A stretch of 47,515 bases of DNA from Alphaproteobacteria bacterium (GCA_009380075.1 WHSO01000020.1:1-47515), one strand, 5' to 3'. Positions 20,030 through 24,577 are shown, counted from the stretch's first letter. Program-made: numbers and translations. Notes: generated by a model from the letters alone, not told the origin.

Positions 20030-20728
20030 CTAGGCGAGGTCGAACAGCAGGAATTCCCCGCTTCCATCCGTCGTGAACTCGATCCGGCCGACGTCCACGA
20101 TAGCCACGCCGTCGCCTTCCACCAGCGTCTCGCCATTGACCGTGACCGTACCCTCGACCACCTGCACCCAGGCGCGGCGGCCGGGGGCGAGGTCGTGGCG
20201 TACCGCGTCGCCTTTCGCCAGCACCGAAGCGAAGATATCGGCGTCCTGGTGGATTCCGAGCGCACCGCCGAGTCCGCGGCCCGAGGCGACGGGCAGGAGC
20301 TTTCCTGCCTTGTCGGCGCGGGAATACCGCTTCTGTTCATAGCCGGGCGCGTGGCCGTCCGCGTCGGGCAGCAGCCAGATTTGCAGCAGACGCGCGTCCT
20401 CGGTCTTCGAGGCATTGAACTCCGAATGGGTGATGCCGGTGCCCGCGGTCATGCGCTGGACCTCGCCGGCGCCGATGGTTTCGCGCCCGCCGGTCGAATC
20501 CTCATGCGCCAGCGTGCCCGCCACCATGTAGGTGACAATCTCCATGTCGCGGTGGGAATGCGGCGGGAACCCGCCGCCGCCCTTGATGCGGTCGTCGTTG
20601 ATGACGCGCAGGTCGCCCCAGTGGACATGGGCGGGATCGACGTAGCCGCCGAAGGAAAAGCTGTGGCGGCTGTCGAGCCAGGGAAAGCGGGTGACGCCGC
20701 GCGCGGCGGCCTTGCGGACAGTGATCAT
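20030..20728 (-). CDS. Pirin-family protein (YhhW-like)
   Basis: The product has 232 residues, nearly the length of E. coli YhhW (231). The ATG at 20728 has GAAGGAG upstream. The N-terminal cupin carries the metal motif HSHRDMEIVTYM and the later Glu/His pair around GEVQRMTAGTGITHSEFN. The second cupin is more degenerate. Some pirins cleave quercetin or bind enzymes; the substrate here is unknown. It is divergent from the first methyltransferase, but I see no copy of the GGGAAC motif facing it. Confidence 0.9.
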   Translation of the reverse strand: MITVRKAAARGVTRFPWLDSRHSFSFGGYVDPAHVHWGDLRVINDDRIKGGGGFPPHSHRDMEIVTYMVAGTLAHEDSTGGRETIGAGEVQRMTAGTGITHSEFNASKTEDARLLQIWLLPDADGHAPGYEQKRYSRADKAGKLLPVASGRGLGGALGIHQDADIFASVLAKGDAVRHDLAPGRRAWVQVVEGTVTVNGETLVEGDGVAIVDVGRIEFTTDGSGEFLLFDLA

Positions 20729-20855: not shown

Positions 20856-20886
20856 GGGAACTTTTTCGGCCCTCCCGCGTCCTAGG
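20856..20886 (+). promoter_or_regulatory. Candidate ECF promoter, site 1 (GGGAAC-N16-CGTCCTAGG)
   Basis: GGGAAC at 20856-20861 and CGTCCTAGG at 20878-20886, separated by 16 nt, lie about 46 bp before the first methyltransferase start. The same two elements with the same spacing precede the cupin gene at 24481. An ECF sigma factor is encoded just downstream, so it is the likely user. Confidence 0.65.
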
Positions 20887-20931
20887 GTCGATCTGGCGTC
20901 CAGACACGAGCCAGACACTAAGGAGGTGGAG

Positions 20932-21723
20932 ATGACCGGGACGACGACGACGGCGACGGCGAACGTCGATACGAGGGAGCTCAAGGCCAAGGTGAAGGCG
21001 ATGTACCGCGACGTCGCCCTGGACCCTGCCGGAGACTTCCATTTCGAGATGGGGCGCGCGATGGCGGAGCGGCTGGGCTACGCGCCGGGGGACCTCGACC
21101 GGGTCCCGGCCGAGGCCATCGCCTCGTTCGCGGGCGTCGGATACTATTTTGACCTGGCCGCGCTGATCCCCGGTGAGCGGGTGCTCGACCTCGGCAGCGG
21201 ATCGGGCATGGACAGCTTCATCGCGGCGCTGCATGTGGGGCCGACGGGCGAGGTCGTCGGCGTCGACATGACCGACGAGCAGCGCGAGAAGGCCGAGCGC
21301 CTGCGCCGGCGCGACGGATTCGGCCGGGTGCGCTTCGTGCCGGGCTACATCGAGGATGTCCCCTGCCCCGACGGCGCCTTCGATGCCGTGGTCAGCAACG
21401 GCGTGATCAACCTGGCAGCGGACAAGGGCCGTGTCTTCCGCGAGGCGGCCCGCGCGCTGAGGCCGTCGGGGCGGCTCGCCCTTGCCGACATCGTGACCGA
21501 GGTCCAGTTGCCCGAGGGCGTGGTCTGCAACGCCACCCTCTGGGCCGCCTGCATCGGCGGGGCCATGCCGCAGGACGATTACCGGGCCGCGATCGAGGCG
21601 GCGGGCTTCGAACTCCTGGAGATTCGGGACAACCCGGCCTATCGTTTCATCTCGGACAGCGCCCGGCGGGCCAGCGAGAAGTTCGGTGTCAAGAGCATCT
21701 CCCTGCTTGCGCGCAAGCGTTGA
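20932..21723 (+). CDS. ArsM-like SAM-dependent methyltransferase
   Basis: The product has 263 residues with AAGGAGGT 4 nt upstream of the ATG. It has a class I SAM fold: VLDLGSGSGMD at 84-94, the acidic loop VGVDMT at 109-113, and SNGVINL at 155-161. The ALADIV and ACIGGA segments place it near arsenite methyltransferases. ArsM enzymes use several Cys to bind As(III). Here the SNC and GCGNP Cys are replaced (SNG, GVGYYF), while C207 in ACIGGA remains. Its substrate may therefore not be arsenite. It is the first gene downstream of a candidate ECF promoter and upstream of the sigma gene. Confidence 0.85.
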   Translation: MTGTTTTATANVDTRELKAKVKAMYRDVALDPAGDFHFEMGRAMAERLGYAPGDLDRVPAEAIASFAGVGYYFDLAALIPGERVLDLGSGSGMDSFIAALHVGPTGEVVGVDMTDEQREKAERLRRRDGFGRVRFVPGYIEDVPCPDGAFDAVVSNGVINLAADKGRVFREAARALRPSGRLALADIVTEVQLPEGVVCNATLWAACIGGAMPQDDYRAAIEAAGFELLEIRDNPAYRFISDSARRASEKFGVKSISLLARKR

Positions 21724-21799
21724 CCACCCGATGCCCGGGCACCATCCCCGTTCCCGCGGGATGGCGTCCCGGGCGCGGCCGGAGCCCGAGCGGTGCGCC

Positions 21800-22396
21800 A
21801 TGCCCGATGCCGATGACCGGCAGTTCTTCGAAGAGCGGATCCTGGAGGTGATGGACCGGCTGTACGCCGCGGCACTGCGCCTGACGCGCGAGCGCACCGA
21901 GGCCGAGGACCTGGTCGCCGAAACCGTCATGCGGGCCTGGGCGAAGCTGGACCAACTGGAGGACCGCCGGCGCTTCCAGGGTTGGATCTTCCGGATCCTC
22001 ACCAACGCCTTCATCAGTACGCGCCGGCGCAGCTCCAGGGCGGAAATCGCCTACGAGGAGCCCCCGGAGATATCGACCGACGAATTTTCCCTGTTCGGAC
22101 AGTTGCACCAGCCGTTCCTGCTTTGGTGGAGCTCGCCCGAACAGGCCTTCCTCAACAAGGTGCTGCGCGAGGACATCGAGGCGGCCCTCGACCGCCTCCC
22201 CGAGGTTTTCCGAACCGTGGTCGTTCTCGTGGACGTGCAGGGGTTCCCCTACGCCGAGGTCGCGGAACTGCTGCAGGTTCCGGTGGGCACGGTGCGCTCG
22301 CGCCTGAAAAGGGGACGGTCCCGCCTGCAGCGCCACCTCTGGCAGCACGCGCAGGAGCGCGGCATCGTCGCGAGTCAGGAGGTACCAGGACCATGA
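21800..22396 (+). CDS. ECF RNA polymerase sigma factor
   Basis: From the ATG at 21800 the product has 198 residues. Earlier ATGs at 21731 and 21761 are possible, as none has a good ribosome binding site. Region 2 is seen in LTRERTEAEDLVAETVMRAW and the -10-binding segment RRRFQGWIFRILTNAF. Region 4 is seen in LPEVFRTVVVLVDVQGFPYAEVAELL and VPVGTVRSRLKRGR. Its stop overlaps the anti-sigma start (ATGA). It probably drives its own operon through the GGGAAC-N16-CGTCC sites and is held inactive by the next gene's product. Confidence 0.92.
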   Translation: MPDADDRQFFEERILEVMDRLYAAALRLTRERTEAEDLVAETVMRAWAKLDQLEDRRRFQGWIFRILTNAFISTRRRSSRAEIAYEEPPEISTDEFSLFGQLHQPFLLWWSSPEQAFLNKVLREDIEAALDRLPEVFRTVVVLVDVQGFPYAEVAELLQVPVGTVRSRLKRGRSRLQRHLWQHAQERGIVASQEVPGP

Positions 22397-22635
22397 AGCC
22401 GGCCAACAAGGACATGAGTTGCGAGGACGTGCTCAAGCACCTGTTCGAGTTTCTCGACGGGGAGCTGGACCACGCCGTGGAGGGTGACATCGAGCAGCAC
22501 CTCAAGCGTTGCCGCAGTTGCTTCAGCCGTGCCGATTTCGAACGGCGGCTCAAGCAGAAGCTCGCGGAGGCGGCGGAGACGGAGGCGCCACCGTCGCTGC
22601 GCGCACGGGTGCGGAGCCTGATCACGAAGTTCTAG
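22393..22635 (+). CDS. Small zinc-type anti-sigma factor (RsrA-like)
   Basis: The product has only 80 residues and is coupled to the sigma gene by an ATGA overlap. SCEDVLKHLFEFLDGEL is followed by the zinc motif H36-x3-C40-x2-C43 (QHLKRCRSC), the mark of ZAS anti-sigma factors such as actinobacterial RsrA. There is no membrane segment, so it acts in the cytoplasm. In RsrA, oxidation of these Cys releases zinc and the sigma factor; a similar thiol switch is plausible here but not shown. Confidence 0.9.
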   Translation: MKPANKDMSCEDVLKHLFEFLDGELDHAVEGDIEQHLKRCRSCFSRADFERRLKQKLAEAAETEAPPSLRARVRSLITKF

Positions 22636-22691
22636 CGCCGGTGGGAAACGTGCTTTAGCGCCGTTGCCTCGGTGACAGGGAGGGGGAAGAC

Positions 22692-23924
22692 ATGGTTGCC
22701 GTCCTTGGATACTCGCGGGAGCAGATCGCCGCGGCGGTGAAGGAGATGTATTCCGCTGTTGCCGCCGATCCTGAAGCGGGATTTCATTTTCCCGTCGGCC
22801 GGTCCGCAAGCCGGGCCGCGGACTACGACGAGCGGCTTCTCGGCCCGGTCCCCGATCGTGCCCTGGCCGCCTTCGCCGGCGTCGGCTGTCCCTTCCGCGC
22901 CGACGTCATCCGGCCCGGCAACGTGGTTCTCGACGTCGGCTCGGGTTCGGGCGTCGACGCCGTCATCGCGAGCCGGCAGGTGGGGCCGGCGGGGAAGGTG
23001 CTGGCGCTGGACATGACCCCGGCGATGCTGGACCGGCTGCGGGATCTGGTGCGCGCCGAAGGCCTCGCCAACATCGAGGTGATCGAGGGCGACGCCGCAC
23101 GCATCCCCCTGCCCGACGCCAGCGTCGACGTGGTGACCAGCAACGGGGTGCTGAATCTCGTGCCCGACAAGCGCCGCGCCATCGCCGAGATTTTCCGGGT
23201 CCTGAGGCCCGGCGGCCGGGTCCAGATCGCCGACATCGTGATCGGGCTGCCGGTCACCCCCGACTGCCTGGCCGACCCCAAGCTGTGGGCCGAATGCGTG
23301 GTCGGCGCCACCGTCGATGAGGACTATCTCGACATGTTCCGCGACGCCGGCTTTGACGACGTGGAGGTCCTGCGCAGCCACGACTACTTCCGCCACAGCC
23401 CCAGCCCGGAGACCCGGGAGGTCGCCCAGGGCTTCGGCGCGCGGGCGATCGAGCTGCGAATGCGGCGCGGCCGGCGCGTGCCCGCGGCGCTGCAGGCTCT
23501 GCGCCGGCTCGACCCCCGGCGCATCGGGCGGCAGGTGCACCGGCGCGGCCTGTGGGGCGTCGCCGCCCTCGCGGCGGCGCTGCTCGCCTGCTATGGGACG
23601 CTGGCCGCGGTGGCAGCCTTGGCCGCGGCGGGCGTCGCGGTGGCGCTCGACGAAGGGGCCTGGGCCGCAGCCATCGTGGCCCTCGCCGTCCTCGCGGCGC
23701 TGGCCGTCCTCGCCGGCCATCGCCGGCACCGGCAAGTCGGGCCGGGGATCGTGGCCGTGCTCGGCGCGGGAGCGATCGGCTACGTGATGTTCGTGAGCTA
23801 TTCCCTCGCGCTCGAAATGATTGCCTTCACCGTCATCGCCGGCGGTGTTGCCTGGGACCAGATCTTGCGGCGGCGCAGCGTGAGCCGGCTCGCGCGCCCG
23901 GGAACGGTCGCTTCAAGCGCCTGA
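22692..23924 (+). CDS. ArsM-like methyltransferase fused to membrane domain
   Basis: The product has 410 residues with GGGAGGGGG upstream. Residues 1-260 resemble the first methyltransferase ([41 protein letters not shown]). This copy has a Cys in GVGCPF (C66) and in ECVVGA but also has SNG instead of SNC. After a basic linker, residues about 287-395 form three or four hydrophobic helices ending near [12 protein letters not shown], with GHRRHRQ between helices. The layout is reminiscent of MerC-type membrane proteins, but the paired Cys of MerC are missing. The tail probably fixes the enzyme to the inner membrane. Confidence 0.82.
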
Positions 23925-23967
23925 GCCGCGCGCCCCGCAGGAAGCCCGGCTTCAACCCAAAGGTAAG

Positions 23968-23995
23968 GGCCCCGCGACCTTGCAGTCGCGGGGCC
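23968..23995. terminator. Bidirectional terminator-like hairpin
   Basis: GGCCCCGCGAC at 23968-23978 pairs perfectly with GTCGCGGGGCC at 23985-23995 around the loop CTTGCA. It lies between the convergent methyltransferase and cupin genes. Neither side has a strong T-run. Confidence 0.6.
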
Positions 23996-24019
23996 GTGTC
24001 CAATCCGTCGCGTCCGGGG

Positions 24020-24481
24020 CTACTTCGCGGCCACGGTGGTCGGCTTGCCTTTCTCGCCGACGAAGACGACGAGGAGGCGGGCCGCTGCATTGCCCTTGTT
24101 GAAGAGCTGGTGGTTGCGATTGAGCGATTCGATATACGCCTCGCCCGAGCGATACCGGCGCGGCTCTCCGCCGTCGGTGACCAGTTCCACCTGGCCCTCG
24201 AGGATGTAGACGTAGACCGGCACCGGATGCTGGTGCCGGGGCGTCCGCCCGCCGGGAGCGATGGTGCCGATCACCGAGGTGATCTCGGGCCGGTCCGTGC
24301 GCGGAAAGGCGAAGGGCTCCCCGTCCCGGGTTTCGCTGGTCCGCAGCACCGGCCGGGTCTCGAACCCGCTGGGCAGGGCCTGATCGGCGCTCCCCGCCGC
24401 CGGCCCGCTGGCCGACGCCGATGCCGTTGCCGCCAAAAGAACGGCGAGTCCCGCCGCCGCCAAAGGGAATCTGGTCCGCAT
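24020..24481 (-). CDS. Exported cupin protein of the ECF regulon
   Basis: The product has 153 residues. The ATG at 24481 has GGAGGAG 6 nt upstream. A signal peptide ([18 protein letters not shown]) precedes a single cupin domain with [14 protein letters not shown] and a later RNHQLFN, which together supply the usual His/Glu metal ligands. It is periplasmic by prediction. Upstream lies the second GGGAAC-N16-CGTCC motif, so it probably belongs to the same ECF regulon as the methyltransferases although it is convergent to them. The ligand is unknown. Confidence 0.85.
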
Positions 24482-24546
24482 CTGTCTCTCCTCCGTGAAT
24501 TGCTCCATCCGGCCGCGGGCCGACCCCCGGTCCGCGCGCCATCCAT

Positions 24547-24577
24547 CCAAGGACGTGCGGGTCGCCGCAAAGTTCCC
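24547..24577 (-). promoter_or_regulatory. Candidate ECF promoter, site 2 (GGGAAC-N16-CGTCCTTGG)
   Basis: On the minus strand GGGAAC lies at 24577-24572 and CGTCCTTGG at 24555-24547, separated by 16 nt, exactly as at site 1. The bases after GGGAAC also begin TTT in both. It is 66 bp from the cupin start. Confidence 0.65.

Follow-up and report, generated by a model that had tools for sequence, protein, structure and literature searches.

A candidate thiol-stress module pairing an ECF sigma factor and an RsrA-like anti-sigma factor with ArsM-fold methyltransferases in an alphaproteobacterium

Described systems and the present locus

Autoregulated stress modules that combine an ECF sigma factor with a zinc anti-sigma factor are already known, and what sets the module described here apart is its unusual set of targets. 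The closest described systems are SigR-RsrA and SigH-RshA (ECF12) of Actinobacteria, in which an autoregulated operon encodes a cytoplasmic anti-sigma factor of 80 aa, the promoters are of the form GGAAT-N-GTT, and the targets are thioredoxin and thiol genes. The residues of RsrA to which roles have been assigned are C11, H37, C41, and C44. The general-stress sigma factor EcfG (ECF15) reads promoters with a GGAAC -35 box, a spacer of 16 or 17 nt, and a CGTT -10 box, and is controlled by the NepR/PhyR partner switch. RpoE8 of S. meliloti (ECF29) uses a GGGAAC -35 box and a -10 box of GCATCCAA, and has no anti-sigma factor (PMC6180224).

In the present study, we analyzed a stretch of 47,515 nt from an alphaproteobacterium (GCA_009380075.1, WHSO01000020.1:1-47515), hereafter the window, in which the following order was found: a pirin gene (- strand), promoter P1, a methyltransferase gene (MT1), an ECF sigma gene, a zf-HC2 anti-sigma gene, a second methyltransferase gene (MT2), a convergent cupin gene (- strand), promoter P2, and uvrB. 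We consider it likely, with a probability of roughly three in four, that this locus is an autoregulated sigma/anti-sigma module that responds to thiol stress and drives ArsM-fold methyltransferases and an exported cupin. An autoregulated operon, a cytoplasmic anti-sigma factor of the same length, and the GGAA core of the -35 box are shared with SigR-RsrA and SigH-RshA. In contrast, the -10 box is CGTCC instead of GTT, the targets are ArsM-like methyltransferases, cupins, and DsrE, and the module occurs in Proteobacteria, Nitrospirota, and Gemmatimonadota. The nearest published pair of -35 and -10 boxes that we found is that of RpoE8, which has the same -35 box, a similar spacing, and a CATCC within GCATCCAA that is close to CGTCC; however, its -10 box is different, its neighbors encode an outer membrane protein and amicyanin, and the sigma gene studied here is linked to an anti-sigma gene in nearly all loci. 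Literature searches that combined the motif with ECF factors or methyltransferases, the main ECF reclassification aside, yielded no paper on this module, which may already bear an ECF group number.

Two promoter sites and their recurrence in other bacteria

A sequence-only reading of this DNA had placed GGGAAC-N16 sites before the first methyltransferase gene and before the exported cupin gene on the opposite strand, with an ECF sigma factor and its anti-sigma factor between them, and had seen no other GGGAAC with CGTCC at that spacing. We confirmed the two sites exactly as given, domain searches agree with the gene order, and a scan of the whole window for GGGAAC-N15..17-CGTC returned P1 and P2 only. 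P1 (20856-20886, + strand) reads GGGAAC-N16-CGTCCTAGG and lies 5' of the MT1-sigma-anti-sigma-MT2 operon, the MT1 start being approximately 45 nt past its end. P2 (24577-24547, - strand) reads GGGAAC-N16-CGTCCTTGG and lies 5' of the cupin gene, the ATG of which is approximately 65 nt past its end. Since no motif was found between MT1 and the sigma gene, the sigma and anti-sigma genes are presumably transcribed from P1. A strong hairpin at 23968..23995 (11-bp stem, -31 kcal/mol, z -5.3), located between the convergent ends of MT2 and the cupin gene, is likely a bidirectional terminator, albeit without a good U-tract on the + strand. The pirin/quercetinase-like gene (20033-20728, - strand), which is divergent from MT1, was absent from 80 of 80 related loci in tblastn searches and, thus, is probably not part of the module.

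The occurrence of two sites in the window is not significant by itself, because 0.76 were expected and 18 of 100 shuffles reached two. A scan of the bacterium's own genome and a repeat in related genomes had also been put forward by the sequence-only reading, and their outcomes differed. The former, a pattern-based search for GGGAAC-N15..17-CGTCC without a matrix, revealed no enrichment (13 matches vs. 23 in the reversed control), and of the other matches, those examined lie across long open frames and were rejected as regulon members. For the latter, 80 loci from other genomes (762 kb in total) were fetched with the sigma protein, their sigma factors being 50-59% identical; the motif occurred 119 times in these loci against 4 for the reversed control. 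A strict match was present in 69 of the 80 loci (3 of 80 in the control), and the looser form GGAAC-N16/17-CGTC in 78 (15 in the control). When a scoring matrix trained on these 80 loci alone was run on the window, P2 and P1 ranked first and second with 26.5 and 26.3 bits, while the next site in the window scored 10.5 and the best of 300 dinucleotide-shuffled windows 18.2.

Because the motif recurs beside the same genes in approximately 80 other bacteria, we regard it as genuine, and it is these genomes, not the counts in the window or in its own genome, that settle its significance. The alternative that P1 and P2 match the pattern by chance, the window being rich in GC, is in keeping with the pattern being no commoner than expected in the window or in its own genome, but has almost no probability left in view of the held-out scores, both well above the maximum of the shuffles, and of the recurrence at homologous positions elsewhere. 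Kinship by DNA identity alone is also ruled out as the source of this recurrence by the divergence of the sigma proteins and by spacers that differ.

The extended consensus at the other sigma loci is cGGGAAC-(c/t)nT...tgCGTCCttG. A spacing of N17 was found at 99 sites and the minority spacing of N16 at 18, among them sites in Nitrospirota and several in alphaproteobacteria; the N16 with GGGAACTTT in the window is typical of the sites with N16. The -35 box and spacing are the same as those of EcfG promoters, and PhyR_sigma2 matches exceed the cut-off at four places in the bacterium's own genome, so that P1 and P2 might be read by EcfG rather than by the local sigma factor. We consider this to be very unlikely: the -10 box is CGTCC(t), not CGTT, with its second C being 94% conserved at N17 sites; in Halomonas, Marinobacter, Nitrospirota, and further taxa, the motif tracks this sigma factor and stands at the same genes; and PhyR_sigma2 was detected among 14 control genomes in Caulobacter and Corynebacterium only, and exceeded the cut-off in one of them. 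Moreover, the gene beside the sigma gene encodes a zinc anti-sigma factor, whereas ECF15 relies on a partner switch. The PhyR_sigma2 matches in the genome itself are on contigs C29, C138, and C26 (L142-L145), and a general stress response of the EcfG/PhyR type is probably present in this bacterium.

At most loci, a copy of the motif stands 5' of the sigma gene or of the operon that contains it. According to approximate gene calls, the first downstream gene encodes the sigma factor (44 sites), MT1 (21), a second type of exported cupin (16), DsrE (8), or an AraC-like regulator (4), while DUF302, DUF1858, MATE, an MddA homologue, and others follow at few or single sites; the DUF1858 product is a redox-disulfide protein, and an OsmC gene lies near the motif-linked genes. 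Many gammaproteobacteria carry two copies of the motif back to back between the sigma gene and a divergent MT1 or cupin gene, and an outlying member has two facing copies upstream of its sigma gene (G025). Sigma factor, anti-sigma factor, and MT2 form a constant core that is found together in nearly all loci. Scans of 20 host genomes in full gave 27 strict matches (7 in the control), with 0-3 sites per genome and nearly all of them at the sigma locus, which indicates a small regulon that is mostly local. Together with the position of the motif before the sigma gene, these results support the small autoregulated regulon proposed from the window.

Several further genes are found behind the motif. 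In Marinobacter iranensis (L128), an unlinked gene for a third type of methyltransferase lies 20 nt behind a perfect copy, and a relative of this gene also follows the motif in L070. Exported truncated globins (Bac_globin) follow the motif in unrelated genomes, namely at an unlinked site in Litchfieldella (L140) and at L014:3011-3580. A gene for an MddA-type methanethiol S-methyltransferase (L028:3-704, - strand) lies approximately 108 bp past a strict copy; its product scored 266 bits against a cut-off of 270, and the open reading frame is cut by the contig end. In Halomonas, the locus is neighbored by aldehyde dehydrogenase, BCCT, and YjbQ genes, which we attributed to synteny within the lineage and not to the regulon.

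A second sigma/anti-sigma/MT2 cluster is present in the same genome (contig C79:1708-4000, L099), with a sigma factor that is 57% identical, the site TGGAAC-N16-CGTCCT approximately 125 bp before its sigma gene, and a divergent gene for an MFS transporter. As this sigma factor belongs to the same family and has nearly the same promoter, the regulon may be shared between the two. They form separate long branches in the sigma tree and, thus, are not recent duplicates. Within the class, the system is rare, with matches at E < 1e-45 in 2 of 385 genomes, and the 80 other genomes with the sigma factor belong to Alpha-, Beta-, and Gammaproteobacteria, Nitrospirota, and Gemmatimonadota. This distribution suggests patchy and probably horizontal inheritance.

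The sigma factor and its RsrA-like partner

The sigma gene (21800..22396, + strand) encodes a protein with sigma2 and sigma4 domains only (PF04542 and PF08281) and no sigma3 domain, as in ECF sigma factors, and its TIGR02937 score was 94.8 bits against a cut-off of 42.9. The closest solved structures are those of Mtb SigH, while the SigR model TIGR02947 gave 140 bits, far below its cut-off of 251.6. The linker between the two domains (22085-22145 region of the window), which carries LHQPFLLWW, reads FSLFxxLHQPFLLWW with approximately 98% conservation in the family and may serve as a family signature. This sigma factor is assumed to read the GGGAAC-N16/17-CGTCC motif, to which it was assigned by linkage and co-conservation only.

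The anti-sigma gene (22393..22635, + strand) overlaps the stop codon of the sigma gene (ATGA) and encodes a soluble zinc-finger protein of 80 aa, in which HLKRCRSC matches the HxxxCxxC motif of the ZAS type (PF13490, 34.1 bits; cut-off, 22.2). Its best solved relative is RsrA (5frf, 4.7e-7), and the RsrA model TIGR03988 gave 60.5 bits, just below the cut-off of 62.5. C10, H36, C40, and C43 are conserved in 81 of 81 sequences and align with C11, H37, C41, and C44 of RsrA at identical spacing. By analogy with RsrA, thiol oxidation or thiophilic ligands would free the sigma factor; zinc sites in anti-sigma factors may also be structural rather than sensory (PMC7406223).

Methyltransferases, cupin, and the possible substrate

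MT1 (20932..21723, + strand; 263 aa) is preceded by the ribosome-binding site AAGGAGG just upstream of its start. MT2 (22692..23924, + strand), which accompanies the sigma factor more constantly than any other partner, carries a C-terminal four-helix MerC-like membrane domain (23550-23900 of the window; 29.9 bits against a cut-off of 27.6), which many of its relatives share and some lack, and which contains one conserved Cys (C300, 70%). ArsM enzymes are the best relatives of both proteins in fold and sequence and share their SAM motifs; this membrane domain of MT2 is a difference from ArsM. Both proteins matched the NCBIfam arsenite methyltransferase model PRK11873 at E ~1e-60, with scores of 207.5 (MT1) and 198.7 bits (MT2) that are below the curated cut-off of 263. 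The position of ArsM Cys72, a column marked by the aligned C72A mutant chain 5eg5, is occupied by V69 in MT1 and V64 in MT2, and that of the Cys in the ArsM 'SNC' motif by G157 and G152; in the family alignments, Val and Gly are found at these positions in nearly all members. The third Cys (C207 in MT1 and C202 in MT2) is the sole one of the three As(III)-binding Cys to be kept.

If MT1 and MT2 were ordinary arsenite methyltransferases and As(III) acted on the Cys residues of the anti-sigma factor, the locus would be an arsenic-resistance regulon. The close relationship with ArsM speaks for this view; however, canonical arsenite methylation is doubtful with two of the three As-binding Cys lost and, considering also the scores below the curated cut-off, we regard an arsenic-specific role as unlikely. 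The substrate of MT1 and MT2 is probably a small toxicant that resembles a thiol or a metalloid, to judge from homology and from the neighboring genes.

The sulfur-related genes that follow the motif elsewhere, namely, those for DsrE, DUF302, DUF1858, and one MddA, weakly favor a sulfur- or chalcogen-type substrate. A more specific version of our explanation is a regulon for reactive sulfur or volatile chalcogens, in which sulfide, methanethiol, or related Se or Te species are S-methylated to a volatile product by MT1, MT2, and the further methyltransferases linked to the motif. MddH, a UbiE-type H2S/MeSH methyltransferase, was found in Halomonas (PMC13360808), and mdd genes were reported to be induced by sulfide (PMC12904073). 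MddA, MddH, and MddM resemble MT1 and MT2 in being SAM-dependent, and MddH and MddM2 have been described as UbiE-type. MddA itself is a membrane enzyme that is unrelated to them and follows the motif in a single genome, and the exported globins and a MATE pump, which are not specific to sulfur, are also linked to the motif. We therefore put this version forward as a tentative possibility.

The cupin gene (24020..24481, - strand) encodes a single-domain protein with a predicted signal sequence, the location of which is expected to be outside the cytoplasm. H83 and H85, at metal-ligand positions, are invariant in its orthologues. The structural model (pLDDT 77) gave fold-level matches to many metal cupins, including TM1459, DMSP lyases, and hydroxynitrile lyase, which does not settle the function. 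Orthologues with approximately 55-58% identity adjoin MT1 in Halomonas/Billgrantia, and another is present in Chelativorans xinjiangense in the operon DsrE-cupin-MT1-sigma-anti-sigma-MT2. Since such orthologues are found in MT1 operons behind the motif, the cupin appears to belong to the regulon, either through the operon or, as in the window, through a promoter of its own, and the inclusion of this distal convergent gene by the sequence-only reading is consistent with this. Cupin and ECF genes have also been reported near chlorite dismutase, where the anti-sigma factor is of the DUF1109 type (PMC9751292); a role in the response to reactive chlorine was not supported.

Taken together, the module may operate as follows. 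At rest, the soluble anti-sigma factor would keep the sigma factor inactive through its Cys10-His36-Cys40-Cys43 zinc/thiol site. A thiol-reactive or oxidizing stress in the cytoplasm, which is the signal suggested by the analogy with RsrA, would break this site, and the freed sigma factor with RNA polymerase would read promoters of the form cGGGAAC-N16/17-(g)CGTCCt. Transcription from P1 would yield MT1, both regulators, and MT2, thereby providing positive autoregulation with a built-in negative feedback, while that from P2 would yield the cupin. The two enzymes would then methylate a toxicant of the sulfur or metalloid type, with the cupin acting outside the cytoplasm. A bolder reading, which we hold to be possible rather than probable, is that of a thiol-stress module of wide distribution and patchy inheritance, with targets unrelated to those of SigR, in which a sigma factor that has a promoter code of its own is released by the RsrA-like sensor and induces a new subfamily of ArsM-fold enzymes and exported cupins that convert reactive S, Se, Te, or related species to a methylated, probably volatile, product.

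For a stress system that is present in bacteria of soda lakes, marine habitats, and groundwater and in degraders of aromatic compounds, the present results provide a promoter code, a small set of genes, and an invariant thiol site. With so small a regulon and a motif that is close to unique in each genome, a single RNA-seq or reporter experiment could reveal the signal. ArsM-like enzymes are usually annotated as arsenite methyltransferases, and the loss of two Cys in the present subfamily raises the question of what these enzymes really methylate.
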